A DNA stretch of 64,000 nt from Dehalobacter sp. (GTDB lineage: Bacteria > Bacillota > Desulfitobacteriia > Desulfitobacteriales > Syntrophobotulaceae). The stretch is from positions 62,001 to 126,000 of the forward strand of contig JAMPIU010000053.1 in assembly GCA_023667845.1 (NCBI GenBank), given 5' to 3'. The position numbers were made by a program, and so were the translations under genes. Below are positions 4,431 through 52,220 of the stretch, one piece after another. The notes under the pieces were generated by a model that saw nothing but the letters and a program-made list of their open reading frames with translations, was not told where the DNA came from and did no database searches. The first letter of the stretch is position 1, and every line of letters starts with the position of its first letter.

Positions 4431-6413
4431 ATGGACGAAAAACTACAGGATGAAAAAAAATTACTGGACGAAACAACACTGTCAGTAGATTTAGCTACTC
4501 AAGAGCTTTACGTCAAGGCCCGGAATGACGGTTCCGAAACACTCTGGGACAGAAAAGCCGCTCTCAAAAACCAATGCGGTTTTGGTGAGCAAGGTGTCTG
4601 CTGCCGGATTTGTACCATGGGTCCTTGCCGCGTCAGCCCGATTCCAGGAAAAGGCGTTCAAAAAGGTATTTGCGGCGCCACTGCGGATGTTATTGCTTCC
4701 AGGCATTATGCCCGAATGGTAGCAGGCGGTTCATCTGCACACTCCGATCACGGCAGACATATTGCCCATGTACTTCATATGGCAAGTCCGGACGGAGATT
4801 ATCAAATCCGTGACGAGAAAAAACTGCTGAATGTTGCAGCCAGATGGGGTGTGGCTACAGAAGGCAAAGATATCTACCGGGTTGCCCATGAAGTTGCTGA
4901 AGCAGCTCTGAATGATTTTGGCAAGCCTTTTGGTTCGATGGTTATTCCGCCAAGTATTACTAAACAAAGATTAAAAGTCTGGGAAGATAATGATATCCTC
5001 CCCGATGCTATTGACAAAGAAGTTGTATCGATTATGCATGCTACACATATGGGCTGTACCGCTGATGCTGAAAGCATGATCAATCTTTCTATGCGGACAT
5101 CTTTGACCGACGGTTGGGGCGGTTCCTATATCGGTACTGAATTCAGCGATATTATCTTTGGAACCCCGATGCCGAGAGAAATCGAAGCCAACATGGGTGT
5201 TATTGAGAAAAACATGGTGAACATTGTCTTGCATGGTCATGAACCCAGTTTATCGGAAATGATCGTTATTGCCGCTGATGACCCTGAGCTGAAGGCTCTG
5301 GCCAAGAGTGTCGGCGCAGAGGGAATCAACCTGGTCGGCATTTGCTGTACCGGCAATGAAGTCGCGATGCGTCATGGCATTAAAATTGCCGGGAATTTCA
5401 ATCAGCAGGAGCTCGCGATTGTTACCGGCGCCGTTGAGGCCATGATTGTGGACGTTCAATGTATCTTCCCTGCCCTGGCCAACCTGGCTCAATGTTACCA
5501 TACCAAATTTATCACAACCTCAAGACTTGCAAAAATTAAAGACGCCGTTCATATCGAATTTGATGAGAACAACGCCTATGAATGCGCAAAGAGAATAATT
5601 CGGAAAGCAGTAGAGAACTATACAAACAGAAAGCACGAAAAGGTTTCCATCCCAACACATAAATCAACCGGCACGATCGGTTACAGCAACCAGGCTATTA
5701 TTGGCCAGTTGGACCGCGTTGTCAATTCTTATACGCATAAGCCAGGCACGTTTGAACCATTGGCGCAATGCTTAGTTTCTGGTGTATTAAGAGGCGCAGC
5801 CGGTGTCGTCGGCTGCAACAACCCGAAGGTGAAAGGTGACCATAGCCATATCGAGATCATTAAAAAGATGCTCGCCAATGACGTCATTGTTGTTGTTACC
5901 GGCTGTGCGGCTCAGGCTGCTGCCAAAGCTGGTCTCTTAAGCAAAGATGCTGTCAAGTATTGCGGAGTAGGCTTACAAAAAGTATGCGAACTGGCCGATA
6001 TCCCTCCTGTTCTGCATATGGGCTCCTGTGTTGACAACAGTCGTATCCTTGAACTGGTTGGTGAAGTAGCCAAGATTCTGGGACTCGATATGAGTGAATT
6101 GCCGGTTGTCGGCGCAGCTCCGGAATGGATGTCCGAAAAAGCTATCGCCATCGGTACCTATGTAGTAAGCTCTGGAATTGATACCTTCCTGGGCGTTGTT
6201 CCTCCGGTAACTGGAAGCCCGGAAGTTACAGATATCCTGACCAACAAACTGGAAGACTGGGTAGGAGCAAAATTCTACTTTGAAACAGATCCGGCTGTAG
6301 CCGCAGAAAAAATGCTGGCCAGAATTGAAGAAAAGAGAGCCAAAGTCGAAGCCCTTAACGTTCAGAGAATGAATGTCACCGGCTATGACGACTTAATTCC
6401 TGCCGGCTTTTAA
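4431..6413 (+). CDS. cooS: Carbon monoxide dehydrogenase catalytic subunit (CODH of the CODH/ACS complex)
   Basis: A 660-residue Ni-Fe-S enzyme (also called acsA) that interconverts CO and CO2 in the cytosol. The N-terminal cysteines CGFGEQGVCC, CTMGPC and GICG supply the B and D clusters. C-cluster ligand regions are present: VLHGHEP, GICCTG, DVQCIFP, VGCNNPK, TGCAAQ and MGSCVDN. No key cysteine is missing. It has a strong ribosome site and opens the operon cooS-cooC-cooC-acsD-acsC-acsE-acsB-acsV. The adjoining acsB makes CODH/ACS coupling the likely role, rather than respiratory CO oxidation. The long upstream region suggests regulation. Confidence 0.96.
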   Translation: MDEKLQDEKKLLDETTLSVDLATQELYVKARNDGSETLWDRKAALKNQCGFGEQGVCCRICTMGPCRVSPIPGKGVQKGICGATADVIASRHYARMVAGGSSAHSDHGRHIAHVLHMASPDGDYQIRDEKKLLNVAARWGVATEGKDIYRVAHEVAEAALNDFGKPFGSMVIPPSITKQRLKVWEDNDILPDAIDKEVVSIMHATHMGCTADAESMINLSMRTSLTDGWGGSYIGTEFSDIIFGTPMPREIEANMGVIEKNMVNIVLHGHEPSLSEMIVIAADDPELKALAKSVGAEGINLVGICCTGNEVAMRHGIKIAGNFNQQELAIVTGAVEAMIVDVQCIFPALANLAQCYHTKFITTSRLAKIKDAVHIEFDENNAYECAKRIIRKAVENYTNRKHEKVSIPTHKSTGTIGYSNQAIIGQLDRVVNSYTHKPGTFEPLAQCLVSGVLRGAAGVVGCNNPKVKGDHSHIEIIKKMLANDVIVVVTGCAAQAAAKAGLLSKDAVKYCGVGLQKVCELADIPPVLHMGSCVDNSRILELVGEVAKILGLDMSELPVVGAAPEWMSEKAIAIGTYVVSSGIDTFLGVVPPVTGSPEVTDILTNKLEDWVGAKFYFETDPAVAAEKMLARIEEKRAKVEALNVQRMNVTGYDDLIPAGF

Positions 6414-6436
6414 AAAACGCGGCCATGGTCGTTTTG

Positions 6437-6461
6437 TTGCAAGAAGAATTTCTTCTTGCAA
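6437..6461 (+). other. Perfect palindrome between cooS and cooC
   Basis: TTGCAAGAAGAA, one central T, then TTCTTCTTGCAA: 12-bp perfect arms in the 86-bp gap. As RNA it could form a stem that protects the cooS message or attenuates read-through into the maturation genes. As DNA it could bind a protein. Confidence 0.5.
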
Positions 6462-6499
6462 CCAATAACAAAGATAAATCGTGCATCGGGGTGATTTAA

Positions 6500-7270
6500 A
6501 TAAAAATAGCAATTACAGGTAAAGGTGGCGTCGGCAAAACAACTTTTGCAGCAATTCTAAGCAGACTGTATGCAGCGGAAGGCTACCGGGTCCTGGCAGT
6601 TGATGCCGATCCTGATGCCAATCTGGCTTTGGCCCTTGGTTTTCCTGACGAGATTATTTCCAAGATCGTACCGATCGCCGAGATGAAAGAACTGATTGCC
6701 GAAAGAACAAGTACCCCGACCGATTCCTTTAGTAAAATGTTTAAATTGAATCCGCAGGTAGATGATATCCCGGACAAATACTGTACCCGCTATAACGGTG
6801 TAAATCTGTTAACGATGGGTACCGTCGAAAGCGGCGGCAGCGGCTGCGTTTGCCCGGAACATGTCCTGTTGAAAAGACTTACTTCTCATTTAGTCCTGCA
6901 AAATAAAGATGTTGTCGTTATGGATATGGAAGCCGGGATTGAGCATCTCGGCAGAGGAACAGCCCAGGGTGTGAATGCCTTTATTGTGGTCATTGAGCCC
7001 GGAGCCAGAAGCCTCCAGACGTACCACAAGATCAAGAAGCTGGCTTCCGATATCGGCGTATCGAAAATTTATGCCGTGGGCAACAAGATCAAAAACGATG
7101 CAGATAAAGGGTATATCCTCGACAATATCGATTTTGAAGCCTGCCTGGGTTTTATCTCTTACAACGCAAACGTCGTCAATTCTGATCGGGCAGACCAGTC
7201 TCCTTTCACGGACAATAAGATTGTTGAAGAAGTTAAAGCAATTAAGATTAAGCTCAATGCTTTGATATAG
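6500..7270 (+). CDS. cooC: CODH nickel-insertion ATPase CooC (first copy), apparent AUA start
   Basis: A MinD/ParA-type P-loop ATPase that loads nickel into the CODH C-cluster. The frame begins after a TAA at 6497-6499. The codon where family members have Met is ATA at 6500, giving (I/M)KIAITGKGGVGKTT, so the P-loop is only complete if translation starts there. GGGGTGAT (6488-6495) is an excellent Shine-Dalgarno match at the right distance. No ATG, GTG or TTG exists between the stop and the P-loop. The next ATG (6629) would remove the ATP site. The metal-binding CxC motif is present as GCVCPEH. Product is 256 residues. A sequence error changing ATG to ATA is the main alternative. Confidence 0.88.
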   Translation: MKIAITGKGGVGKTTFAAILSRLYAAEGYRVLAVDADPDANLALALGFPDEIISKIVPIAEMKELIAERTSTPTDSFSKMFKLNPQVDDIPDKYCTRYNGVNLLTMGTVESGGSGCVCPEHVLLKRLTSHLVLQNKDVVVMDMEAGIEHLGRGTAQGVNAFIVVIEPGARSLQTYHKIKKLASDIGVSKIYAVGNKIKNDADKGYILDNIDFEACLGFISYNANVVNSDRADQSPFTDNKIVEEVKAIKIKLNALI

Positions 7271-7286
7271 AAAAGAGGCAATTTAG

Positions 7287-8054
7287 ATGGGAAGAACAAT
7301 TGCGGTAGCCGGTAAAGGCGGAACCGGAAAAACAACCATTACAGGCCTTTTGATCGATTACCTTGTCAAAAATAAGCAAGGACCTGTACTTGCCGTCGAT
7401 GCTGATGCCAATGCCAATTTGAATGAAGTGCTGGGAGAAACAATCGAAGTTACGCTTGGAGAAATCAGAGAAGAAGTAAACTTAAGAGAAACCATGCGTG
7501 ATGGCTTCCCCGGAGGAATGACCAAGGCCCAGTACCTTCAGTACCAACTGAATACCGGGATCACCGAAGGAGATGGTTATGACCTCCTCGTCATGGGAAG
7601 ATCCGAAGGCAAAGGCTGCTACTGTTTTGTTAACGGGATTTTGCGGGAACAGCTTGACAAAGTCTCTGATAAATACAACTATGTTGTGATCGATAATGAA
7701 GCCGGCATGGAGCACTTGAGTCGGGGAACGGCAAGAAACATTGATATTCTGATCCTCGTTAGCGACTGCTCGCGCCGCGGCATTCAGGCCGTTGGCCGAA
7801 TCAACAAGTTGGTTAAAGAATTAGGTCTGAAAGTAGCTCAACAATATTTGATTGTCAATAAAGCCCCAGATGAACAATTAAGCGAGGGGATTACTGAAGA
7901 AATATCTTTGCAGGGGTTGGAACTGCTGGGGATCATTGCCCTGGATCCATTGATATATGCGTATGATTCTCAGGGAAAAGCCTTGGTTAATTTGCCTGAT
8001 GACAGTTTATCAAAACGGGCAATTAAAGATATCTGCCAAATAATTGGTTTATAA
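7287..8054 (+). CDS. CODH nickel-insertion ATPase CooC/AcsF-type (second copy)
   Basis: 255 residues. It has the deviant Walker A AGKGGTGKTT at residues 8-17, the Walker-type VIDNEAGMEHLSRG stretch and a CxC motif (KGCYCFVN) that would bind nickel between two subunits of a dimer. It lies 16 bp after the first cooC and 19 bp before acsD. In acetogens two CooC-like ATPases next to CODH/ACS are thought to mature CODH and ACS separately. Which copy serves which enzyme cannot be told here, although its place before acsD suits an AcsF-like role. Confidence 0.85.
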   Translation: MGRTIAVAGKGGTGKTTITGLLIDYLVKNKQGPVLAVDADANANLNEVLGETIEVTLGEIREEVNLRETMRDGFPGGMTKAQYLQYQLNTGITEGDGYDLLVMGRSEGKGCYCFVNGILREQLDKVSDKYNYVVIDNEAGMEHLSRGTARNIDILILVSDCSRRGIQAVGRINKLVKELGLKVAQQYLIVNKAPDEQLSEGITEEISLQGLELLGIIALDPLIYAYDSQGKALVNLPDDSLSKRAIKDICQIIGL

Positions 8055-8073
8055 GAAGAAGGAGGAGATTCTA

Positions 8074-9018
8074 GTGGCTTTTAAAACCTCAGTCCAAAAG
8101 TATAGTGGAAGCATTTACAACTTGGAATTAGGGACAGGGGAGAACACCTTAGCTCTCGGTGGACAGAATGTGTTTCCGTTTTACAGTTTTGACGGTGACA
8201 CCGGCAGCGGCGTAAAGATTGGTTTGGAAATACTCGATATTTACCCAGAAAATTGGGCAGATGGTCTTAAGTCCATCTATGGTTCAGCTGCAGAAAATAC
8301 TGTGGAATGGGCCAAATATGCTGAAGAAAAGTTTGCACCTGATTTCATTTGCTTACGGTTTGAAGGCGCAGATCCGAATGGTCTAAATAAATCCGTTGAA
8401 GAATGTGCCACTCTGGCTAAGAAAGTTGCCAATGCTGTTAAACTGCCTCTTGTTATTGCCGGGACACAAAATTATGAGAAAGACCTTAAATTATTTGAGA
8501 AAGTAGCCGAAGAGCTGGAAGGTAAAAATATCCTTTTGTTATCCGCTGTTGAAGATAACTATAAGACTGTTGCCGCAGCTGGCGTAACAGCTTATAAACA
8601 TAAAGTAGCGGCTGAGTCCTCGGTTGACATCAACCTGGCTAAGCAATTAAATATTTTAATCAACCAACTGGAAGTCAAAAACGAAAATATCATAATGAAT
8701 GTTGGGACCGCACCTGTCGGTTACGGTTTTGAGTATGTCGCTTCGACCATTGACAGAATCAGACTGGCCGCTTTGGGTCAAAATGATAAAACCTTACAGA
8801 TGCCGATTATTACACCCGTTTCTTTTGATACTTGGAACGTTAAAGAGTCTGCCTCTACAGAGGAAGATTCTCCGGAATGGGGCTGCCAGGAAGAGCGTGG
8901 AATTGCTATGGAGGTTTCTACAGCCGCCAGTGTTATTGCCGTCGGCTCCGATGCTGTTGTTCTACGTCATCCGCGTTCAGCAGAGACAATCCGTGCTTTC
9001 GTGGATAACCTGAAATAA
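8074..9018 (+). CDS. acsD: Corrinoid iron-sulfur protein small subunit
   Basis: 314 residues forming the TIM-barrel small subunit of the CFeSP, which carries the methyl group from AcsE to acetyl-CoA synthase. I chose the GTG at 8074 because AAGGAGGAG lies 6-8 nt before it. An upstream in-frame start at 8044 would overlap the cooC end and lacks a site. Conserved features seen are the LGGQNVFPF and FDGDTG segments near residues 30-45, and DTWNVKES and EWGCQEERGI late in the protein. acsC follows after 45 bp. The two subunits form a heterodimer. Confidence 0.93.
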   Translation: MAFKTSVQKYSGSIYNLELGTGENTLALGGQNVFPFYSFDGDTGSGVKIGLEILDIYPENWADGLKSIYGSAAENTVEWAKYAEEKFAPDFICLRFEGADPNGLNKSVEECATLAKKVANAVKLPLVIAGTQNYEKDLKLFEKVAEELEGKNILLLSAVEDNYKTVAAAGVTAYKHKVAAESSVDINLAKQLNILINQLEVKNENIIMNVGTAPVGYGFEYVASTIDRIRLAALGQNDKTLQMPIITPVSFDTWNVKESASTEEDSPEWGCQEERGIAMEVSTAASVIAVGSDAVVLRHPRSAETIRAFVDNLK

Positions 9019-9063
9019 TTAATATTTAAGAATTTTGATACTACTTTTGATTCAAGGAGGAAA

Positions 9064-10425
9064 ATGAAAATGGCAATGTCCGGATTGGATATCTATAAAC
9101 TGACTCCCAAAACCAACTGTAAAGAATGTGGCTTTCCTACCTGTATGGCTTTTTCGATGAAGGTAGCAGCTGGCGGTGTAGAAATAAGCAAGTGCTCGCA
9201 CATGAGTGATGATGCGATGGCAAAGCTCTCTGAGTCCACTGCTCCCCTGATGAAGGTCGTGACTTTCGGCAAAGGAGAAACCGAATGTAAACTTGGCGGT
9301 GAAATTGTTCTTTTCCGTCACGAGAAAACCTTTGTCAACCGCAACAGATTTGCTGTACTGCTTTCCGATGCGATGTCCCAGGAACAAATCGATGCGAAGA
9401 TCGCCAATATGAAAAACGTCGACTATGTCCGGATCGGCGAAGAAATGAGAGCTGAAATTGCTGCCCTACAGTATGTTGGCAACAAAGACGCTTATCTCTC
9501 TTTAGTCAGTAAAGTTAAAGCTTCCGGTTTAAAAGTAGCCTACATGCTGGTATGCCCCGATGTTTCCGTGCTGAAAGAAACTTTGGAACTGGTCAAAGAT
9601 GAACTCCCGATCGTATTCGGCGCTGACAGCAACAACTATCAGGAAATGGTTGCTTTGGTCAAGGATCTCAAACTCCCTCTCGGCTTAAAAGCACCCTCAC
9701 TTGCCGAATTGTATGATCTGGTCGAAAATGTCCAGAAACTTGATTACAAAGAATTACTGCTGGATATCGGCAGCGCTTCTGCACGTGAAGCTTTTACCAA
9801 CGCTGTACAGATCCGCAGAACAGCTCTAAAAGAGCAAGACAGAACCTTTGGTTATCCTTCCGTAGTCTTTGTCAACGAGCTGGCCAAAGGTGACAAATTT
9901 ATGGAAGTTGCTCTGGCCTCCCTGTTCACCATGAAATATGGTTCCCTTATTGTTATGGACGATATGGATTACGCCCGCGCTCTCCCGCTCTTCGGTTTAA
10001 GACAGAATATCTATACTGACCCGCAGAAACCGATGAGAGTTGAACCGGAATTCTATCCGATCAACAACCCCGGCGACAGCTCACCTGTTTTGATTACGGT
10101 TGACTTTGCTCTGACTTACTTCGTTGTTTCCGGTGAAGTGGAGAGATCCAAAGTACCGGCCTGGCTGGGAATCCCTGATGCCGGCGGTTATTCCGTCCTT
10201 ACAGCATGGGCCGCAGGCAAGTTCAGCGGTTCGGTCATTGCTAAATTCATTAAAGAATCCGGCATTGAAAGTAAAACAAAATGCAGAAAGCTTATTATTC
10301 CTGGAAAAGTTGCCGTTCTGAAAGGTGACATCCAGGACAGCCTTCCTGACTGGGAAGTTATCATTGGTCCTGATGAAGCCATGCATCTTCCTAAATTTTT
10401 AAGAACGATGGAAGGCATTAACTGA
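9064..10425 (+). CDS. acsC: Corrinoid iron-sulfur protein large subunit
   Basis: 453 residues. The N-terminal [4Fe-4S] domain has NCKECGFPTC and a fourth cysteine at EISKC (within residues 18-46). A central TIM barrel and a C-terminal cobamide-binding domain follow. The Fe-S cluster passes electrons to reactivate Co(II). The cobalamin domain accepts the methyl group and presents it to AcsB. AAGGAGG overlaps the region just before the ATG. Length is normal for the clostridial protein and no cluster ligand is missing. Confidence 0.95.
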   Translation: MKMAMSGLDIYKLTPKTNCKECGFPTCMAFSMKVAAGGVEISKCSHMSDDAMAKLSESTAPLMKVVTFGKGETECKLGGEIVLFRHEKTFVNRNRFAVLLSDAMSQEQIDAKIANMKNVDYVRIGEEMRAEIAALQYVGNKDAYLSLVSKVKASGLKVAYMLVCPDVSVLKETLELVKDELPIVFGADSNNYQEMVALVKDLKLPLGLKAPSLAELYDLVENVQKLDYKELLLDIGSASAREAFTNAVQIRRTALKEQDRTFGYPSVVFVNELAKGDKFMEVALASLFTMKYGSLIVMDDMDYARALPLFGLRQNIYTDPQKPMRVEPEFYPINNPGDSSPVLITVDFALTYFVVSGEVERSKVPAWLGIPDAGGYSVLTAWAAGKFSGSVIAKFIKESGIESKTKCRKLIIPGKVAVLKGDIQDSLPDWEVIIGPDEAMHLPKFLRTMEGIN

Positions 10426-10511
10426 ACTGAAAAAGACACGAATTGACCTAAAGTATTAATTTATTAATCTAAAGTGTTCCGTTCTCAATAAAAATTGGAG
10501 GTGCTCCTAAC

Positions 10512-11297
10512 ATGGACAGATTTTTAGTCATTGGTGAAAGAATCCACTGTATTTCTCCGGTCATTCGGCAGGCTATCGCTGACCGTAATCCTGCCCCAAT
10601 TTTCCAGAGAGCAAAAGAACAGCTAGATGCCGGTGCTGTTTATCTTGACCTGAATATCGGACCTGCTGAAAGGGACGGCGAAGAAGTCATGGCCTGGGCC
10701 GTTCAGCTTCTGCAGAATGAATTTGATAATGTTCCAATTTGTTTAGATACGGCCAATAAAAAAGCCATTGAAGCCGGTATCAGGGTCTACAACCGTTCCA
10801 AAGGCAAACCGATTATCAATTCTGCCGATGCCGGTCCGAGACTGGGACTCTTAGAAGTCGCCGCCGCCAACGATGCCATGGCTATTGCCCTGTGTGCTAA
10901 AGAAGGTATTCCTTCTGACGTCGAAGAGCGCATCACTTATTGTACCGAAATGCTGGAAAAAGCAATGATGCTTGGTATCGACCCAATGGATCTCTTATTT
11001 GACCCGCTGTTCCTAGTCATCAAAGGCATGCAGGAAAAAGCAACGGAAGTCCTTGAGACCATTCGTCAAATTACGGAGATGGGCCTCAGAACCAATGCTG
11101 GCTTAAGCAATGTCTCCAATGGCGCTCCGAAACATGTCCGTCCGATCATTGACGCTACTTATTGTGCAATGGCCATGCAATGCGGTCTGACCGCAGCCAT
11201 TGTTAACCCTTGCGATCAGAGGCTTATGGAGACAATCAAAACCTGCGACATGATTAAAGGCAATATGTTATATGCCGATTCCTACCTGGAGCTATAA
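10512..11297 (+). CDS. acsE: 5-methyltetrahydrofolate:corrinoid/iron-sulfur protein methyltransferase
   Basis: 261 residues, the standard AcsE length. It opens with FLVIGERIHC and contains AGAVYLDLNIGPAERDG, VPICLDTANK and TNAGLSNVSNG, which form the methyl-THF site on a TIM barrel. It moves the methyl group from methyl-THF to the cobalt of AcsCD. It sits between acsC and acsB, so it is the dedicated enzyme of the pathway. The divergent homologue at 1962-2765 is a separate gene. The ribosome site is GGAGGTG ahead of the ATG at 10512. Confidence 0.95.
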   Translation: MDRFLVIGERIHCISPVIRQAIADRNPAPIFQRAKEQLDAGAVYLDLNIGPAERDGEEVMAWAVQLLQNEFDNVPICLDTANKKAIEAGIRVYNRSKGKPIINSADAGPRLGLLEVAAANDAMAIALCAKEGIPSDVEERITYCTEMLEKAMMLGIDPMDLLFDPLFLVIKGMQEKATEVLETIRQITEMGLRTNAGLSNVSNGAPKHVRPIIDATYCAMAMQCGLTAAIVNPCDQRLMETIKTCDMIKGNMLYADSYLEL

Positions 11298-11352
11298 TTG
11301 ATAGCCTCGTCTTGCAACGGCCTGGGGGAATTCTACGGAAAGGGGAATATAC

Positions 11353-13479
11353 ATGAATTTATATAGCACCATATTTGCAGGCGCCAAGCAGGCTCTCGAT
11401 ACTGCTGCCGAATATGTTGAAAAAGCAATCTCCTTAAAAGGAAGAGAGCATAAAGTTGCTTTTCCGGACACCGCTTACTCCCTGTCCCTTATTTATGCCA
11501 TTACCGGCAAAAAAATAGGCACCCTGGGAGAACTTGAAGGTGCTTTAGACCTTGTCAGAAGCCTTATTGTGGAAAAAGAGCAGCTTCGAGAAGCAGAGAA
11601 TGCCGGTATGGCAGCTGCTGTCTCTTCCGAAATTATTGAAGCTTTAAAGTATGTCATGGACGAAAAGCCCTATGAAGCTCCGTGCATGGGTTTTCTGACG
11701 GATGCGATTATCCGCGGCTGGGGTGTTGGTCTCGTAATGGACGATATCCCGGGGCAGGCGGTTATCATTGGTGAGTTTCCGGACCCCGAATCAGCCGCCA
11801 AAGTCATCAAAGAATACCAAGCTAAAGGGCTTTTAACCTTCCTTGTCGGTAAGGTCATCAATCAGGCCATTGAAGGCGGGGTCAAAGTAGGACTTGAGTT
11901 CAGGGTCATGCCTTTAGGTTATAACATGACCTCTGTAATCCACGTCGTTACGGTAACCATCCGCGCTGCCTTAATCTTCGGAGCCTTGACCCCCGGCGAC
12001 TGGGAAGAATTCAAGCGTTATACCTATAAAAGATTGAAAGCTTTTATCAATGCCGTAGGCCCTTTAAGCAATTACAAAGTTGCTGCAGGCGCAGCAGCGA
12101 TTAACCTTGGCTTCCCAGTTGTAACCGACCAGGATGTTGCCGAAGTCCCGATGAAGCTTATCACCCAAAAAGATTACGATAAAATGGCTGCAACTTCCCT
12201 TGAGATCAGAGGCATTAAGATAAAGATCACAGAAATTCCTATTCCGGTTGCTTTTGCTGCTGCTTTTGAAGGAGAGAGAATCAGAAAAGATGCTATGTTT
12301 GTTGAATTCGGCGGCAGCAAAACAGATTCCTGGGAGCTTGTTACGCAAAGAGAAGCCAGTGAGATTGAGGATCATAAGATTGTGCTCATTGGTGACGATA
12401 TTGACACCGTACAGCAGGTACCCGGAAGAATGCCTCTGGCAGTACTCGTCGAAGTAGCCGGCAAGAGCATGCATTCAGATTTTGAACCGGTTCTGGAAAG
12501 AAGAATTCACTATTTTATGAACTATATTGAAGGCATCATGCACGTCGGCCAGAGAGACACCACCTGGATTCGTATCAGCAAGGATGCTTACGAAAAAGGC
12601 TTCAGACTACGCCATTTTGGTGAAGTGCTGTATGCCAAGATGCTGGACGAGTTTGGCGCAGTCGTGGATAAATGTCAGATTACAATTATCACTGATGCTG
12701 CCAAAGTCAAAGAAGTAAAGGCCCAGCAGGTGGTTTCCAAGTATGCAGCAAGAGACGAACGTATTGCCAGTCTGACTGATGAAAGTGTCGACACTTTTTA
12801 TACCTGTATTCTCTGCCAGTCCTTTGCCCCTTCCCATGTGTGCATTGTTACACCGGAAAGACTAGGATTATGCGGCGCCGTAAGCTGGCTTGATTCCAAA
12901 GCTACTTTTGAGCTCGATCCAACCGGTCCTTGTCAGCCAATTACCAAAGGTCTTGTTGATGATCCCGTCAAAGGTATCTGGCAAGAAGTCAACAAAACCG
13001 TGGAACGGCACTCCCAAGGCGCTTTGAGCCAGATCACGCTGTATAGTTTACTGGAAGATCCGATGACTTCCTGCGGCTGCTTTGAATGTATCGCCGGCAT
13101 AATGCCGGAAGCCAATGGCATTGTCATCGTGAACAGAGAGTTTTCCGGCGTATCTCCGGTAGGTATGACATTCGGCGAACTGGCTTCCATGACAGGCGGC
13201 GGCGTTCAGACTCCCGGATTTATGGGACATGGCAGACAGTTTATTTCCTCTAAGAAATTCATCTCAGCTGAGGGCGGTCCCGGACGTATTGTCTGGATGC
13301 CGAAAGAACTCAAGGAATTCGTTGCTGACAAACTGAATGCAACTGCGAAAGAAATGTATGGAATTGATAACTTTGTCGATATGATTTGCGATGAAACCAT
13401 CGCTTCAGAGTCCGAAGCAGTCTTAGAGTATCTAAGTGAAAAAGGCCACCCTGCACTAACAATGGATCCGCTGATGTAG
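11353..13479 (+). CDS. acsB: CO-methylating acetyl-CoA synthase
   Basis: 708 residues. It condenses CO, a methyl group and CoA into acetyl-CoA at the A-cluster. Visible ligands are C485, C488, C497 and C507 for the cubane and C574-G-C576 for the distal nickel. The spacing (3, 9, 10, then 67 and 2) equals that of Moorella ACS (C506, C509, C518, C528, C595, C597) with a constant 21-residue shift, so the protein appears fully functional. The N-terminal CODH-docking domain is present. acsV follows after 51 bp. AAAGGGG precedes the ATG. Confidence 0.96.
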   Translation: MNLYSTIFAGAKQALDTAAEYVEKAISLKGREHKVAFPDTAYSLSLIYAITGKKIGTLGELEGALDLVRSLIVEKEQLREAENAGMAAAVSSEIIEALKYVMDEKPYEAPCMGFLTDAIIRGWGVGLVMDDIPGQAVIIGEFPDPESAAKVIKEYQAKGLLTFLVGKVINQAIEGGVKVGLEFRVMPLGYNMTSVIHVVTVTIRAALIFGALTPGDWEEFKRYTYKRLKAFINAVGPLSNYKVAAGAAAINLGFPVVTDQDVAEVPMKLITQKDYDKMAATSLEIRGIKIKITEIPIPVAFAAAFEGERIRKDAMFVEFGGSKTDSWELVTQREASEIEDHKIVLIGDDIDTVQQVPGRMPLAVLVEVAGKSMHSDFEPVLERRIHYFMNYIEGIMHVGQRDTTWIRISKDAYEKGFRLRHFGEVLYAKMLDEFGAVVDKCQITIITDAAKVKEVKAQQVVSKYAARDERIASLTDESVDTFYTCILCQSFAPSHVCIVTPERLGLCGAVSWLDSKATFELDPTGPCQPITKGLVDDPVKGIWQEVNKTVERHSQGALSQITLYSLLEDPMTSCGCFECIAGIMPEANGIVIVNREFSGVSPVGMTFGELASMTGGGVQTPGFMGHGRQFISSKKFISAEGGPGRIVWMPKELKEFVADKLNATAKEMYGIDNFVDMICDETIASESEAVLEYLSEKGHPALTMDPLM

Positions 13480-46749: not shown

Positions 46750-47412
46750 ATGAAAATTGTTCCTAAACCTATCGAACATATATTAAAGAAAAAGAACATT
46801 CTTTGGAGCATGATCGTTTTGGTTTTCTTGTTTTTTAGCGGATGTTCTCCTGCCGAACCTAAATCGTCCCCTTCTCCCACCGACAGACAGACTGAAAATA
46901 TTGCCGCATACATTCCGTTGAGCGTCGGCAATTATTGGCTCTATGAAGGAATTGGAAACGAATATGCTTCGTATACAGAAAAGGTTACATACCAGCAGCG
47001 TAATCAATACCAGGTCATAATTGACAATGGCGGTACTGTTACCACTAACAGGTATGAAGTTGCAGCAGACCGTATCGTTAATACCTTCAGACAGTCTGAG
47101 TTCTATGAAGATAAAAATATTTTGGATCAACCATCAAATATTAAGGCTATCCTTCTGCAATCACCGCTTACCGCAGGCAATTCGTGGACCAGTGAAGGAA
47201 ATTCATATGAGATCATTGACACGTCCGCCACGGTAGAAGTACCAGCTGGTATTTTTGAAAATTGCCTGACTGTAAAAATCACGTATCCTGAAAGCAGAAA
47301 TTACAGCTTATATTACTATAAGAAAGACGTCGGTCTAATCAAATCTGAGTATGTGATGCCGGAAAACGAAAAAGTAGTCTCGCAGCTTAAAGAATACGAT
47401 GTCCAGCACTAG
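46750..47412 (+). CDS. Lipoprotein of unknown function
   Basis: 220 residues. A signal peptide ends at the lipobox FFSGC (Cys at about residue 35), so it should be attached outside the membrane. The mature part contains IPLSVGNYWLYEG and TAGNSWTSEG, which recur in secreted clostridial lipoproteins. The N-terminal part before the hydrophobic core is long (about 18 residues). AAGGAGG precedes the ATG. It is divergent from the efflux operon and the function is not known. Confidence 0.8.
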   Translation: MKIVPKPIEHILKKKNILWSMIVLVFLFFSGCSPAEPKSSPSPTDRQTENIAAYIPLSVGNYWLYEGIGNEYASYTEKVTYQQRNQYQVIIDNGGTVTTNRYEVAADRIVNTFRQSEFYEDKNILDQPSNIKAILLQSPLTAGNSWTSEGNSYEIIDTSATVEVPAGIFENCLTVKITYPESRNYSLYYYKKDVGLIKSEYVMPENEKVVSQLKEYDVQH

Positions 47413-47603: not shown

Positions 47604-49346
47604 TTAGATCGAATGTTTGTTTCTTTTTTTCAGGATAGCCAGACTTAAAATCATAAGCACGAATGCCGCACCGCCAATAAGATAATCTTCTCGACGGTTT
47701 ATCCATCTATTATTAGGATCCTGACCGGGCGCTTCCTGCCAATTCATGCCCGGCATCTTTTGCTTATAATCCATTCCTTCTGGCATATTTCCCGGTGGCT
47801 GCATGCCTGACTGATCTTGTCTTATATCAGGATGTATTCCCTGCAGCCCTTGCTCTGCCCGTTGTCCCCATTGCGCCTGTTGTCCCTGTCTTGTCGGCGG
47901 CGGCTGTAGCCCACCTGCATTTTCACCGGCCGCATCCTCTGTTGTTCCCGATGAAGGCAGTTCCCCGCTTAGCTGTTTGGAGACATTATCAATCCGGTCA
48001 CGAATAAATGTAGCCAGTCCTATCAAATTTCCGCTTCCCGGCATATTCTTTCCAGCCCCAAAGCCGCCTCGGGATGTGGTCTTACTGTCTGTTATAGGTT
48101 CCTGAGAAGAGCCTTCGCCGATTGCTTGTTCAAATTGTTCCAGCGTATAGAACTTTGTTGGGTCACTTGTGACATAAGGTCTAATCAGATCAGCGGTTTT
48201 CTCGATTTTAGCCGTCATTTTCTCCAAAGCAAAAGGCCCTTGGATAAATGCTTTCATGTATTGGTGATAGACATCCTTATACGCCTGTACTTCGAGTAGT
48301 TTGCCCAGCAGTGGGCGCTGGTCTAATGTCGTTCCGGAAACCGGCTGATCAATCGACAGCGCAGTACCTCCGCCAAATCCACCAAAGGACAAATTATAAT
48401 CCCAGGGGAGGAAACTGAATACACCGTCCTCCTCATATAAATAATAATTGTGGGTAAACTGTCCCTGATAGCTGTCCATATTGACTAGTATGGTGTTAAC
48501 TGCAAAATATCGCAGGATCTCGTCAATATTTAGGTACGTTTCTAAATTCCCGCCTTCATCCAGTGCTTTGATCATCTTGACTAAAGCCTCATTGCTGCCT
48601 TCTTTCAAGGCGGTCACAGCTTGCAGGCCGCTGTAGGATTCAATATTGTCATCACTGTAAACCAGATCGTTTCCTTCACCCCGATCGCCATACGGTTTAT
48701 AGAGTGTCCCATGGTCCTGGCCAAAGTACCTTTCCGCATATGCTTCTTCAACGCCCTCAACTGCCAGATACAAACCTGCTGGATGATCATTGATATAAAG
48801 GTTCGCGTAGCAATAAGCAGGAACAGGAACGTCCATCTCTTTCAGCAGTGAGTAGGATAGATATTCCCGCATGCAGGACGCATCACCCCAGCCATTATTC
48901 AAATTCAGTTTGGTCAGTCCCGAGAGGCTTTGCCCTTCAATATAATGATCAAAATCAATTTTGAGGCTATAGCGGTCGGAATTGCTTCTCAGGACTGAAT
49001 TAAGACTGGAATTGCCTTTGGTACGGATTCCGACATTTTTTGTCTTAACGCCATTGATCACAACCTGAGCCTCTTTATATTCTTCCTCTGCAGGATTTTG
49101 CAGCATGTCCTGATAATCCGCCTCAGGGATTGAAATGCGAATTTCAATGACTTTGTCCGGATCGAAGAAACGTTCCGTATAAGCGGAATAAACAGACTCT
49201 GCAGAGGAGCTGCCTTTTCCTGTTTTTTCAGTGTTCAAACGGACATTGGCACTATCTCCCTGCTTGTAAGACAGTGCCGCATAGGCGGTCGTTAAGGTGC
49301 ATACTGTAAGCAGGGCCGCAACCACCCCTGTAAATTTTTTGTCCAT
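47604..49346 (-). CDS. CotH-like kinase-fold protein with signal peptide and C-terminal membrane anchor
   Basis: 580 residues. The N-terminal signal peptide VVAALLTVCTLTTAYA leads to a CotH kinase-like domain with VGIRTKGNSSLNS near residue 105, YHIEGQSLSG-like and NLNNGWGDASCMREYLS, and LPWDYNLSFGG near residue 315. The C-terminal third is Gln/Gly/Pro-rich and of low complexity, then a membrane segment YLIGGAAFVLMILSLAIL. In Bacillus, CotH phosphorylates spore coat proteins. Here extracytoplasmic anchoring suggests another substrate. The neighbouring genes form a module with it. Confidence 0.85.
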   Translation of the reverse strand: MDKKFTGVVAALLTVCTLTTAYAALSYKQGDSANVRLNTEKTGKGSSSAESVYSAYTERFFDPDKVIEIRISIPEADYQDMLQNPAEEEYKEAQVVINGVKTKNVGIRTKGNSSLNSVLRSNSDRYSLKIDFDHYIEGQSLSGLTKLNLNNGWGDASCMREYLSYSLLKEMDVPVPAYCYANLYINDHPAGLYLAVEGVEEAYAERYFGQDHGTLYKPYGDRGEGNDLVYSDDNIESYSGLQAVTALKEGSNEALVKMIKALDEGGNLETYLNIDEILRYFAVNTILVNMDSYQGQFTHNYYLYEEDGVFSFLPWDYNLSFGGFGGGTALSIDQPVSGTTLDQRPLLGKLLEVQAYKDVYHQYMKAFIQGPFALEKMTAKIEKTADLIRPYVTSDPTKFYTLEQFEQAIGEGSSQEPITDSKTTSRGGFGAGKNMPGSGNLIGLATFIRDRIDNVSKQLSGELPSSGTTEDAAGENAGGLQPPPTRQGQQAQWGQRAEQGLQGIHPDIRQDQSGMQPPGNMPEGMDYKQKMPGMNWQEAPGQDPNNRWINRREDYLIGGAAFVLMILSLAILKKRNKHSI

Positions 49347-49401
49347 GTTTTAATCCCTCTTTTTTCAGGTGTCGGATGTAATGCTGCTTAAGGGAGGATG
49401 A

Positions 49402-50118
49402 TTATACTGCAAGCTCTCCGTTATAACTTACCAGGACGACATCATTTACACCTTCTATAGCTGCCAAGGCATTAACAAAATCCGTATTGTCAACTCTTAA
49501 TCGCACTTCAATGGTAAGTTCGATTCCCTGTCCGCCGCGAACCGCTTTTGATTTAATTTTCATTCTTTTGACATGCTCCACCAGCTTTGTTAGCAGCATT
49601 TTTTCTGCCTCGCTATTACTGCAGTTTACAACCACCATATAGGGAATTTCATTGGTTGTTTTACTTGTAAAAATGATCAGCATGATTCCGATGACAATCG
49701 ACCCGCTAATGGCAAGCAGATACTGCCCGGCACCACTGACGATTCCCGCTGCGATAGCCCAGAAGATAAAGATGATGTCCATTGGGTCTTTGATCGCTGA
49801 TCTGAAACGTACGATACTTAAAGCTCCGACCATACCGAGAGAAAGAACGATGTTAGATGTGACACCCATGATAATGAGTGTGGTAATCATCGCCATACCT
49901 ACTAGAGAAACATTAAAGTTCCTGGAATACATGACCCCATTGAACGTCTTCTTATACACCGCATAGATAAACAGTCCGAGTAGAAAAGAAATTAGCAACG
50001 TAATCGCCACATCAACAATAGAAAAATTTGTGACTGCGTTTTCGAGAAAACTGTTTTTAAAAATATCTGCAAAGGTAAATGTTTGATCTGTAGTAACCGC
50101 ACTGGTTGTTGCATCCAT
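49402..50118 (-). CDS. DUF4956 membrane protein
   Basis: 238 residues. Four membrane segments in the first 150 residues (FSIVDVAITLLISFLLGLF, VSLVGMAMITTLIIM, NIVLSLGMVGALSIVRFR, IIFIFWAIAAGIVSG), then a soluble tail with a beta pattern. DUF4956 proteins co-occur with VTC-type polyphosphate polymerase and CotH genes. The start at 50118 follows GGAGG 8 nt upstream. Function unknown, possibly the membrane part of a polyphosphate or phosphoprotein system. Confidence 0.85.
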   Translation of the reverse strand: MDATTSAVTTDQTFTFADIFKNSFLENAVTNFSIVDVAITLLISFLLGLFIYAVYKKTFNGVMYSRNFNVSLVGMAMITTLIIMGVTSNIVLSLGMVGALSIVRFRSAIKDPMDIIFIFWAIAAGIVSGAGQYLLAISGSIVIGIMLIIFTSKTTNEIPYMVVVNCSNSEAEKMLLTKLVEHVKRMKIKSKAVRGGQGIELTIEVRLRVDNTDFVNALAAIEGVNDVVLVSYNGELAV

Positions 50119-50175
50119 GATACCATCCTCCAATGTATTCTAATTTATTCAGTGATTAAATCCATTATGGAGCTT

Positions 50176-50856
50176 TTATCCGTATTTTCGACATATAACA
50201 TACTTTGAGATCGCTGCCTTCTGTCTGCTGTCCAATTGAATCAGGTTCGCAATATGGCTAGGCAGGTAACAGTCATATTTGATTTCCAGAATTGCCGTAT
50301 TGCTCGCTAAAGCATTGGCCAGCGGGGTGGTGAAATCTAAAAAGCTGGTCGCGGCGAATCCGGTTTTTACATCACTGTCAATTGTGATTCTTACTCTACC
50401 CGGCTCCCATATATAGGCCTGACGCCGGTACTCTACAATTGTTTTCGGCTTAAACAGACCGGTTCTCATTTTTGTATAAAGGTGCCGGCATACAGCTTCC
50501 GGACGATTTCGTAAAAATTGATAGTCACCGTTGATTAAGTCTTGACATCCCTCTTCGGTCAAAATCGCACTCTCTTTAAAGCCTGACCCATCGTTCTTGA
50601 CCTTCTTCTCAAGCCGGATGATTGCGGTGGAATGATCATATGTTCTAATTCTGAATTTTTCCCGATATTTAACCCCTATCAACTTCTCCAATAATGCCGT
50701 ATCATTAATATCATCAAAGTAGAGACTTCTAACGGTATAAAATCCTTCCGACCCGGTATGTTTGTCCTTAGGAAGCACCCTATTCAAACGGTTGACCAGT
50801 ACTACTCTGTCGAAGTTATTGATGCTCATTTTAATTTCCTGCCGATATTTGCTCAC
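50176..50856 (-). CDS. VTC-domain polyphosphate polymerase-like protein
   Basis: 226 residues. A triphosphate-tunnel fold with the charged strand motifs YRQEIKMSIN, TVRSLYFDD, FRIRTYD and IRLEKKVK, and ITIDSDVKTGFA. In yeast the VTC4 domain of this family makes polyphosphate from ATP. Bacterial members often lie beside DUF4956 and CotH genes, as here. The protein is soluble. No second polymerase domain is present, so it may act with the membrane protein encoded after it. Confidence 0.82.
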   Translation of the reverse strand: MSKYRQEIKMSINNFDRVVLVNRLNRVLPKDKHTGSEGFYTVRSLYFDDINDTALLEKLIGVKYREKFRIRTYDHSTAIIRLEKKVKNDGSGFKESAILTEEGCQDLINGDYQFLRNRPEAVCRHLYTKMRTGLFKPKTIVEYRRQAYIWEPGRVRITIDSDVKTGFAATSFLDFTTPLANALASNTAILEIKYDCYLPSHIANLIQLDSRQKAAISKYVICRKYG

Positions 50857-50972
50857 TTGATCACCCCTGTCGTATTATTCCAGTGATCTTTTGATGATGC
50901 TATTTTATCCACTCTATGTGTCATTAATGTGAACGCTGGTTAACAAATTTGTGAAGAATTTAGGTGATGGTT

Positions 50973-52220
50973 ATGTTAAGAAAACGTTGGCTTCCTGTAT
51001 TTGCAGCGGTGGTCTTACTTCTTAGTCTTACCGTTTGGGAAAAAACCAAGACGCCGCTGGCTTCTGAATCCACAGAATTGATGCCTGCCGCCGAAAGTGC
51101 TACTTCTGAAAGCGATTCGTCAGAGACTGCTGCTTCTGAACCTGAGGCTGCTGAATCTACGCAAATGAAACTTACGCTGCTTGGGGATATCATGTGCCAC
51201 CCAACACAGTACGAAGCCGCCCAGACAAGCGGAGGCTATGATTTCAACCCTTCTTTTGAAGAAATCGGAAAAGATACAAGGCTCGCGGACCTAACAATCG
51301 CCAATCTTGAAACGACCTTGGCCGGCAAGGAGATGACTTACAGCGGTTATCCTTCTTTTAATACTCCGGAACAAATGGCTGATGCTGTCCGGAATACACT
51401 TGGTGTGGATGTTGTCTCTAGCGCCAATAATCACTCTTTAGATCGGAATTTTTCGGGCTTAAGCCAGACGATTAATTTTCTGGATCAATATGGTCTGAAA
51501 CACACCGGAACTTATCAGACCGCCGAAGACAGTCAGGAAATTTTGATCCAGGAAATTTCCGGCCTGCGTATCGCTTTCTTAAGCTATACCTATGGCACCA
51601 ATGGGGTTACCCTGCCTGAAGGTAAAGCTTTTGCCGTGAATTATCTGGACCGGGAAAAAATTCTTACCGATGCTAAGATGGCACGAACCCTGGGAGCAGA
51701 TTTAATTATCGCTTCTTTGCACTGGGGAACGGAGTATGCCACAAAACCGTCCACTGAACAGGTCAGTCTGGCCACCTGGATTTTTGAAAATACGGAGGTT
51801 GACATCATTGCGGGCAATCATGTCCATGCTGTCCAACCGATCACCTTCCTCCAAGTAAAAAGCAAGACCACTGGCAAAGAAAAAGAAGGATTGGTGATCT
51901 ATGCCCAGGGAAATTTTATCTCTGATCAGAAAACAGATACGGCGAATATGGGTATTATGGTTGATATCTTTCTGGATATCCGTTCTGCTAAAAAACCAGT
52001 TATTACGCATGTTGCGTACTATCCGACCTGGGTTGATGAAACTCCGGGAGCCGGTCCTAAGACATATCGCGTCTTAAATGTGACAAAGGCCCTGGCCGAT
52101 TATCAGTCAAGGCAGGACCCGCTGCTGAACAGCGCAGATTATGCGGAAATGCTCGCCTATGTATCTCAAATTAAGCAAACTATCCCTTCTGGAAATAAGA
52201 TTCGCTTCGCCAACGAATAA
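50973..52220 (+). CDS. CapA / PgsA-type metallophosphatase-like protein
   Basis: 415 residues. A membrane signal anchor (LPVFAAVVLLLSLTV) is followed by a Ser/Glu/Ala-rich linker. The PGA-cap domain has LLGDIMCHPTQ, ANLETTLAG, ANNHSLD, SLHWGTEY and GNHVHAVQP, which matches metal-binding sites of calcineurin-like phosphoesterases. The start at 50973 follows AGGTGAT. Upstream frames start inside that site. It stands alone and divergent from the VTC gene. Bacillus CapA helps make polyglutamate capsule, but the other capsule genes are absent here. Confidence 0.85.
   Translation: MLRKRWLPVFAAVVLLLSLTVWEKTKTPLASESTELMPAAESATSESDSSETAASEPEAAESTQMKLTLLGDIMCHPTQYEAAQTSGGYDFNPSFEEIGKDTRLADLTIANLETTLAGKEMTYSGYPSFNTPEQMADAVRNTLGVDVVSSANNHSLDRNFSGLSQTINFLDQYGLKHTGTYQTAEDSQEILIQEISGLRIAFLSYTYGTNGVTLPEGKAFAVNYLDREKILTDAKMARTLGADLIIASLHWGTEYATKPSTEQVSLATWIFENTEVDIIAGNHVHAVQPITFLQVKSKTTGKEKEGLVIYAQGNFISDQKTDTANMGIMVDIFLDIRSAKKPVITHVAYYPTWVDETPGAGPKTYRVLNVTKALADYQSRQDPLLNSADYAEMLAYVSQIKQTIPSGNKIRFANE

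Follow-up and report, generated by a model that had tools for sequence, protein, structure and literature searches.

The window, meaning the whole stretch of 64,000 nucleotides analysed here from a Dehalobacter sp. contig, contains three genes on its minus strand that encode a VTC-domain protein, a DUF4956 membrane protein and a CotH-family protein. The preliminary description had placed these families side by side on one strand, and three open reading frames with the corresponding Pfam matches indeed occupy exactly the interval it had given. The features of the locus are as follows:

47604-50856, minus strand: three-gene operon VTC-DUF4956-CotH
50176-50856, minus strand: VTC-domain protein, 226 aa, GTG start, predicted cytosolic triphosphate-tunnel polymerase fold (Pfam PF09359, E 6e-36)
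49402-50133, minus strand: DUF4956 membrane protein, 243 aa from a TTG (Pfam PF16316, E 4e-10)
49801-49809, minus strand: invariant RxR, Arg109-Phe110-Arg111, at the end of a DUF4956 membrane helix (R109 and R111 invariant in 63 sequences)
47604-49346, minus strand: CotH-family secreted, membrane-anchored kinase-fold protein, 580 aa (Pfam PF08757, E 1e-68)
49278-49346, minus strand: signal peptide-like N-terminal stretch of CotH, residues 1-23 (sequence, hydropathy)
48120-49028, minus strand: CotH kinase domain, residues 107-409 (Pfam)
48399-48476, minus strand: CotH stretch with two Asp, D291 and D316, invariant in 36 operon CotH
47667-47966, minus strand: Gln/Gly/Pro/Met/Asn-rich low-complexity spacer of CotH, residues about 461-560
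47631-47684, minus strand: C-terminal membrane anchor of CotH, followed by KKRNKHSI (sequence, hydrophobicity)
50964-52220, plus strand: PGA_cap (CapA-like) gene, divergent from the operon and conserved in sister species (PF09587, E 3e-64; synteny)

The intergenic gaps of only 42 and 55 bases, together with a good ribosome-binding site (AGGGGTGA) upstream of the VTC GTG, argue that the three genes form a single operon. For DUF4956, translation could alternatively begin at codon 6, an ATG in the same frame (about 50118). The gene order and its neighbours are retained in three sister species, and codon-level comparison with two of them indicates purifying selection (dN/dS 0.07-0.11 for VTC and 0.21-0.23 for CotH). 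Promoter and terminator scans returned no more than scans of shuffled sequences. The PGA_cap gene is treated here as a neighbour and, at most, a candidate member of the module. Downstream of CotH, on the opposite strand, 46750-47412 encodes a short, genus-conserved, exported lipoprotein-like protein with a weak DUF3108-like match. A CODH/ACS (Wood-Ljungdahl) gene cluster at window positions 4431-13479 suggests that the host is an acetogen-like anaerobe.

The VTC protein most closely resembles the yeast polyphosphate polymerase. Its profile ranks Vtc4 first (3g3q, E 8e-22), its AF2 model (pLDDT 94.9) finds Vtc4 as the best Foldseek match (3g3r, E 2e-14), and it is a single-domain protein of 226 aa in which sequence, Pfam and model reveal neither an SPX domain nor a fused VTC1-type membrane domain. 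Residues K9, R69, R71, K85, K94, R145 and E191 are invariant and K218 is 98% conserved; these align with Vtc4 positions K200, R264, R266, K281, K294, R361, E426 and K458, so that 8/8 active-site positions are kept. The PF09359 assignment thus comes with both the tunnel fold closest to Vtc4 and its Lys/Arg/Glu set. A Vtc4 R264A/R266A/E426N mutant has served as a catalytically impaired enzyme (PMC9911596). On fold and residues, VTC is a predicted polyphosphate polymerase. Because members of the superfamily differ in function, and because the model is also matched, albeit more weakly, by triphosphatases and adenylyl cyclase-like proteins, VTC could conceivably be another triphosphate-tunnel enzyme that makes no polymer, in an operon for phosphate or nucleotide signalling; given the wide margin by which Vtc4 ranks first in both profile and fold, and the complete set of aligned active-site positions, we consider this highly improbable.

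DUF4956 scores 40.1 bits against a PF16316 cut-off of 30.6. Its AF2 model has 4-5 membrane helices followed by a cytosolic ACT-like domain, and Foldseek matches this C-terminal part, weakly (E 2e-3), to the C-terminal domain of M. tuberculosis MgtC (2lqj), which is the arrangement of MgtC/SapB proteins. Conversely, MgtC-like proteins are recovered by the DUF4956 profile, while the MgtC families themselves match it below their cut-offs: PF02308 (E 0.07; score 14 vs 31.4), PRK09977 MgtC/SapB (E 4e-7) and NF007431 (29.8 vs 214). DUF4956 thus appears to be a distant MgtC relative below the family cut-offs; a sequence search found no relatives with a solved structure. By charge count, the RFR end of its helix would lie on the cytosolic side. 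The nearest named relative of the window gene is in a Peptococcaceae MAG. DUF4956 genes also occur on plasmids NZ_CP059541 (Planococcus) and NZ_CP043029 (Pseudobutyrivibrio); the former adjoins a polyphosphate polymerase gene, which means that the VTC-DUF4956 pair can be plasmid-borne.

The CotH profile matches B. cereus CotH (5jd9, E 5e-46). D316 is what we take to be the second catalytic Asp, and D291 aligns, given a four-residue construct offset, with D228, the residue replaced in the kinase-dead mutant D228Q (PMC7821199). Domain and catalytic Asp pair place the protein among the CotH kinases (PF08757), with putative kinase activity. The claim that it is unlike spore-coat CotH also holds: spore-type CotH in our survey are 364-373 aa without a spacer, whereas the operon protein has 580 aa, a C-terminal anchor and a spacer, and it is not one of the proteins of about 365 aa, lacking both, that sit in a spore-coat gene context.

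To what extent these genes belong together is evident from 398 genomes of the phylum, evenly drawn, with control genomes from other phyla added. Of the 398, the 64 with VTC are precisely those with DUF4956 (Fisher 1e-75, phylogeny ignored), and DUF4956 lies near VTC on the same strand, nearly always adjacent, at 72/77 VTC loci, the remainder including contig ends. CotH is found in 56 genomes, comprising 50/64 with VTC vs 6/334 others (Fisher 9e-44, phylogeny ignored), and is adjacent to or within 6 kb of VTC at 41/77 loci. These loci span about 30 families with a patchy presence. Among the controls, VTC and DUF4956 are both encoded by the same three genomes, from three other phyla and including one archaeon. 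Linkage of the families, whose absence in most genomes would by the preliminary description have refuted the proposal, therefore holds, and their grouping is not due to chance. In a separate collection, scanned at the contig level with the DUF4956 profile because the VTC profile was too divergent, eighty named loci have the same gene order with CotH or Cthe_2159 mostly as the third gene; we omit counts for these named loci, in which apparent absences of VTC or DUF4956 probably reflect the picking of longer antisense ORFs. Genes whose sequences read as a histidine kinase and as a regulator of the OmpR type are found beside 25/61 VTC-DUF4956 loci (L081, L087, L113, L114 and others), and in several of these kinases the outer segment is rich in proline or glycine; no two-component genes lie beside the window operon.

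Where CotH is missing, the usual gene after DUF4956 encodes Cthe_2159, a secreted beta-helix of a carbohydrate-binding family. All 14 VTC genomes without CotH encode it (P 3e-4 if independent), and consequently 64/64 VTC genomes have one partner or the other. Overall, Cthe_2159 is present in 39/64 VTC genomes vs 3/96 VTC-negative genomes. The controls follow the same rule, with Cthe_2159 in Bacteroides ihuae and CotH in Corynebacterium glutamicum and Methanosarcina acetivorans. Furthermore, the VTC and DUF4956 trees group by partner, with 5 and 4 changes, respectively, vs 13-20 in 300 shuffles, even though taxa are mixed and both types can occur in a single genome; these are quick trees with some long branches and uncertain fine placement. 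Partner exchange is suggested by two loci that fall within the CotH clade yet encode Cthe_2159, and at one locus (L114) both partners stand side by side. A minority third locus type encodes lamin-tail/LRR proteins, some of them fused to CotH. The proposed CotH-DUF4956-VTC module stands as regards its families, their strand and its non-spore CotH, but the place of CotH can be taken by at least one other exported protein, Cthe_2159, and the trio itself had already been published. Our search of the open-access literature yielded no paper on Cthe_2159 as the alternative partner. The same Dehalobacter genome also encodes an unlinked Cthe_2159 lipoprotein (G000:C206:165583-166575; L238:7909-9855) with a GGMGGR...GGGRGFKR-like C terminus and the same neighbours in sister species. 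In another genome (G270), a Cthe_2159 gene has two MgtC-like genes in its vicinity (L247:10785-12266), a hint that MgtC relatives may likewise pair with this exported family.

The two partner families also have a low-complexity spacer in common. Defined as a 40-residue window of which at least half is Gly, Pro, Met, Gln and Asn, it is present in 29/42 CotH and 22/25 Cthe_2159 vs 21/796 other proteins of VTC-DUF4956 neighbourhoods, and it is absent from the Pel-linked, lamin-tail and spore-type CotH of the survey. Thus, CotH and Cthe_2159, unrelated exported families serving one cytosolic pair, have the same kind of acidic and probably disordered segment. A basic, polyphosphate-binding tail had been considered for the spacer; the shared segments are net acidic in 45/49 cases, which weakens that idea and argues against simple polyphosphate binding.

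The Dehalobacter sp. genome encodes neither PPK1 nor PPK2, and 46/64 VTC genomes lack PPK1. Such a distribution might be expected if the operon served polyphosphate storage only, with VTC replacing the missing PPK, the DUF4956 ACT domain acting as a regulator and CotH being a passenger under a shared regulator. PPK1 is nevertheless present in the other 18 VTC genomes, and neither a strict exported partner nor partner-specific VTC clades would be expected of a storage system, and we regard this explanation as very unlikely.

A more substantial alternative arises from the Pel literature. Gram-positive Pel clusters have been described as carrying cotH-PPP-DUF4956 as accessory genes (PMC7112168). 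The S. intermedius trio (SIR_1592-1594) lies within such a cluster, where deletion of DUF4956 or CotH changes the amount of Pel and lowers aggregation; specifically, the DUF4956 deletion raised Pel and the VTC deletion had no reported phenotype (PMC12345266). In the C. perfringens NELoc-2 locus (CP4_0460 to CP4_0465), likewise, a glycosyltransferase lies near VTC genes and CotH (PMC2879425); the "tubulin/FtsZ" membrane genes between VTC and CotH may correspond to DUF4956, judging by size and place. Along with the carbohydrate-binding character of Cthe_2159, these observations are consistent with an accessory module that tunes how a matrix polysaccharide is synthesised or assembled, in which VTC and DUF4956 would constitute an MgtC-like cytosolic/membrane regulator, CotH or Cthe_2159 would modify or bind the polymer outside, and polyphosphate would be incidental. 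Yet PelG exceeds the cut-off in only 12/398 genomes and in 3/64 VTC genomes, two of which have it linked to the trio, with no enrichment; a Pel setting is therefore the exception in this phylum. The statement by the 2025 authors that the trio arrangement is not found outside Pel loci (PMC12345266) fails, as 61/64 VTC genomes lack PelG, this one included, and the window operon accordingly does not belong to a Gram-positive Pel cluster. In addition, no family recurs beside the operon within the genus other than an ABC exporter and housekeeping-like neighbours, and the polymerase active site is so strictly conserved that catalysis presumably matters. We consider this explanation unlikely, if the most credible of the alternatives.

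The reading we prefer, tentatively and at slightly less than an even chance, is that the operon is a bacterial module for polyphosphate synthesis and handover with a surface or matrix function, as opposed to simple phosphate storage. Firstly, VTC would make polyphosphate from ATP at the inner face of the membrane, as its fold and active site suggest. Secondly, DUF4956, the obligate genomic partner of VTC, would couple it to the membrane and most likely pass or gate the chain across it, by analogy with the membrane domains of yeast VTC. Thirdly, the exported partner would, from its location, act on the product outside: CotH presumably as an anchored kinase-fold enzyme at the receiving end, Cthe_2159 as a polysaccharide-binding beta-helix. 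None of these bacterial proteins has an activity known to us. Several observations count in favor of the synthesis-and-handover reading: 1) VTC and DUF4956 co-occur, 2) the partner rule holds, 3) both trees are sorted by partner, 4) the active site is kept, 5) PPK1 and PPK2 are absent from this genome, 6) the CotH catalytic Asp is kept, and 7) the S. intermedius deletions affect Pel and aggregation. Against it count the outcomes of the VTC and DUF4956 deletions in that species, the resemblance of DUF4956 to MgtC and not to the Vtc1 membrane domain, its conduit role being deduced from partnership, the net acidic spacers, and the fact that Cthe_2159 is not a kinase, which leaves a single common chemistry in the third slot unproven. 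The preliminary description had hinted at a polyphosphate-linked surface system, and such a role would fit the module. A more specific version, which we deem distinctly unlikely, has VTC-DUF4956 exporting polyphosphate as an energy-rich phosphate donor with which the anchored CotH phosphorylates surface proteins or polysaccharides; if true, polyphosphate export would power phosphorylation on the far side of the membrane, where little ATP is available.

Irrespective of its chemistry, VTC-DUF4956 plus an exported partner is a real and widespread functional module, partly described before. DUF4956 almost certainly gains a functional partner in VTC, and what was described as a Pel accessory emerges as a system that is widespread, stands alone and can exchange its exported partner. 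Should polyphosphate cross the membrane here, this would bear upon its route to bacterial surfaces and upon the phosphate supply of an exported kinase.

When compared with known systems, the operon shares three co-directional, adjacent families with the Gram-positive Pel accessory genes, but its genome lacks PelG and its CotH has a G/P/M/Q-rich spacer that the surveyed Pel-linked CotH lack. In NELoc-2, too, CotH is clustered with VTC genes, although with two VTC copies and a resolvase in a pathogenicity-associated locus. The spore-coat CotH kinases of B. subtilis and B. cereus have the same domain and catalytic Asp pair, whereas the operon CotH is exported, anchored, spacer-bearing, located beside VTC and longer (580 vs about 365 aa). 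MgtC/SapB proteins share the membrane helices and subsequent ACT-like domain of DUF4956, which is set apart by scores below the family cut-offs, its own invariant RFR motif and its obligate pairing with VTC. Finally, the yeast VTC complex (Vtc4/Vtc3/Vtc1) has the catalytic tunnel fold, the active-site residues and a membrane partner in common with the bacterial pair, which points to a bacterial counterpart of that complex, albeit one in which VTC has neither an SPX domain nor membrane helices of its own, an unrelated protein resembling MgtC stands as the membrane partner, and an exported third protein has been added.
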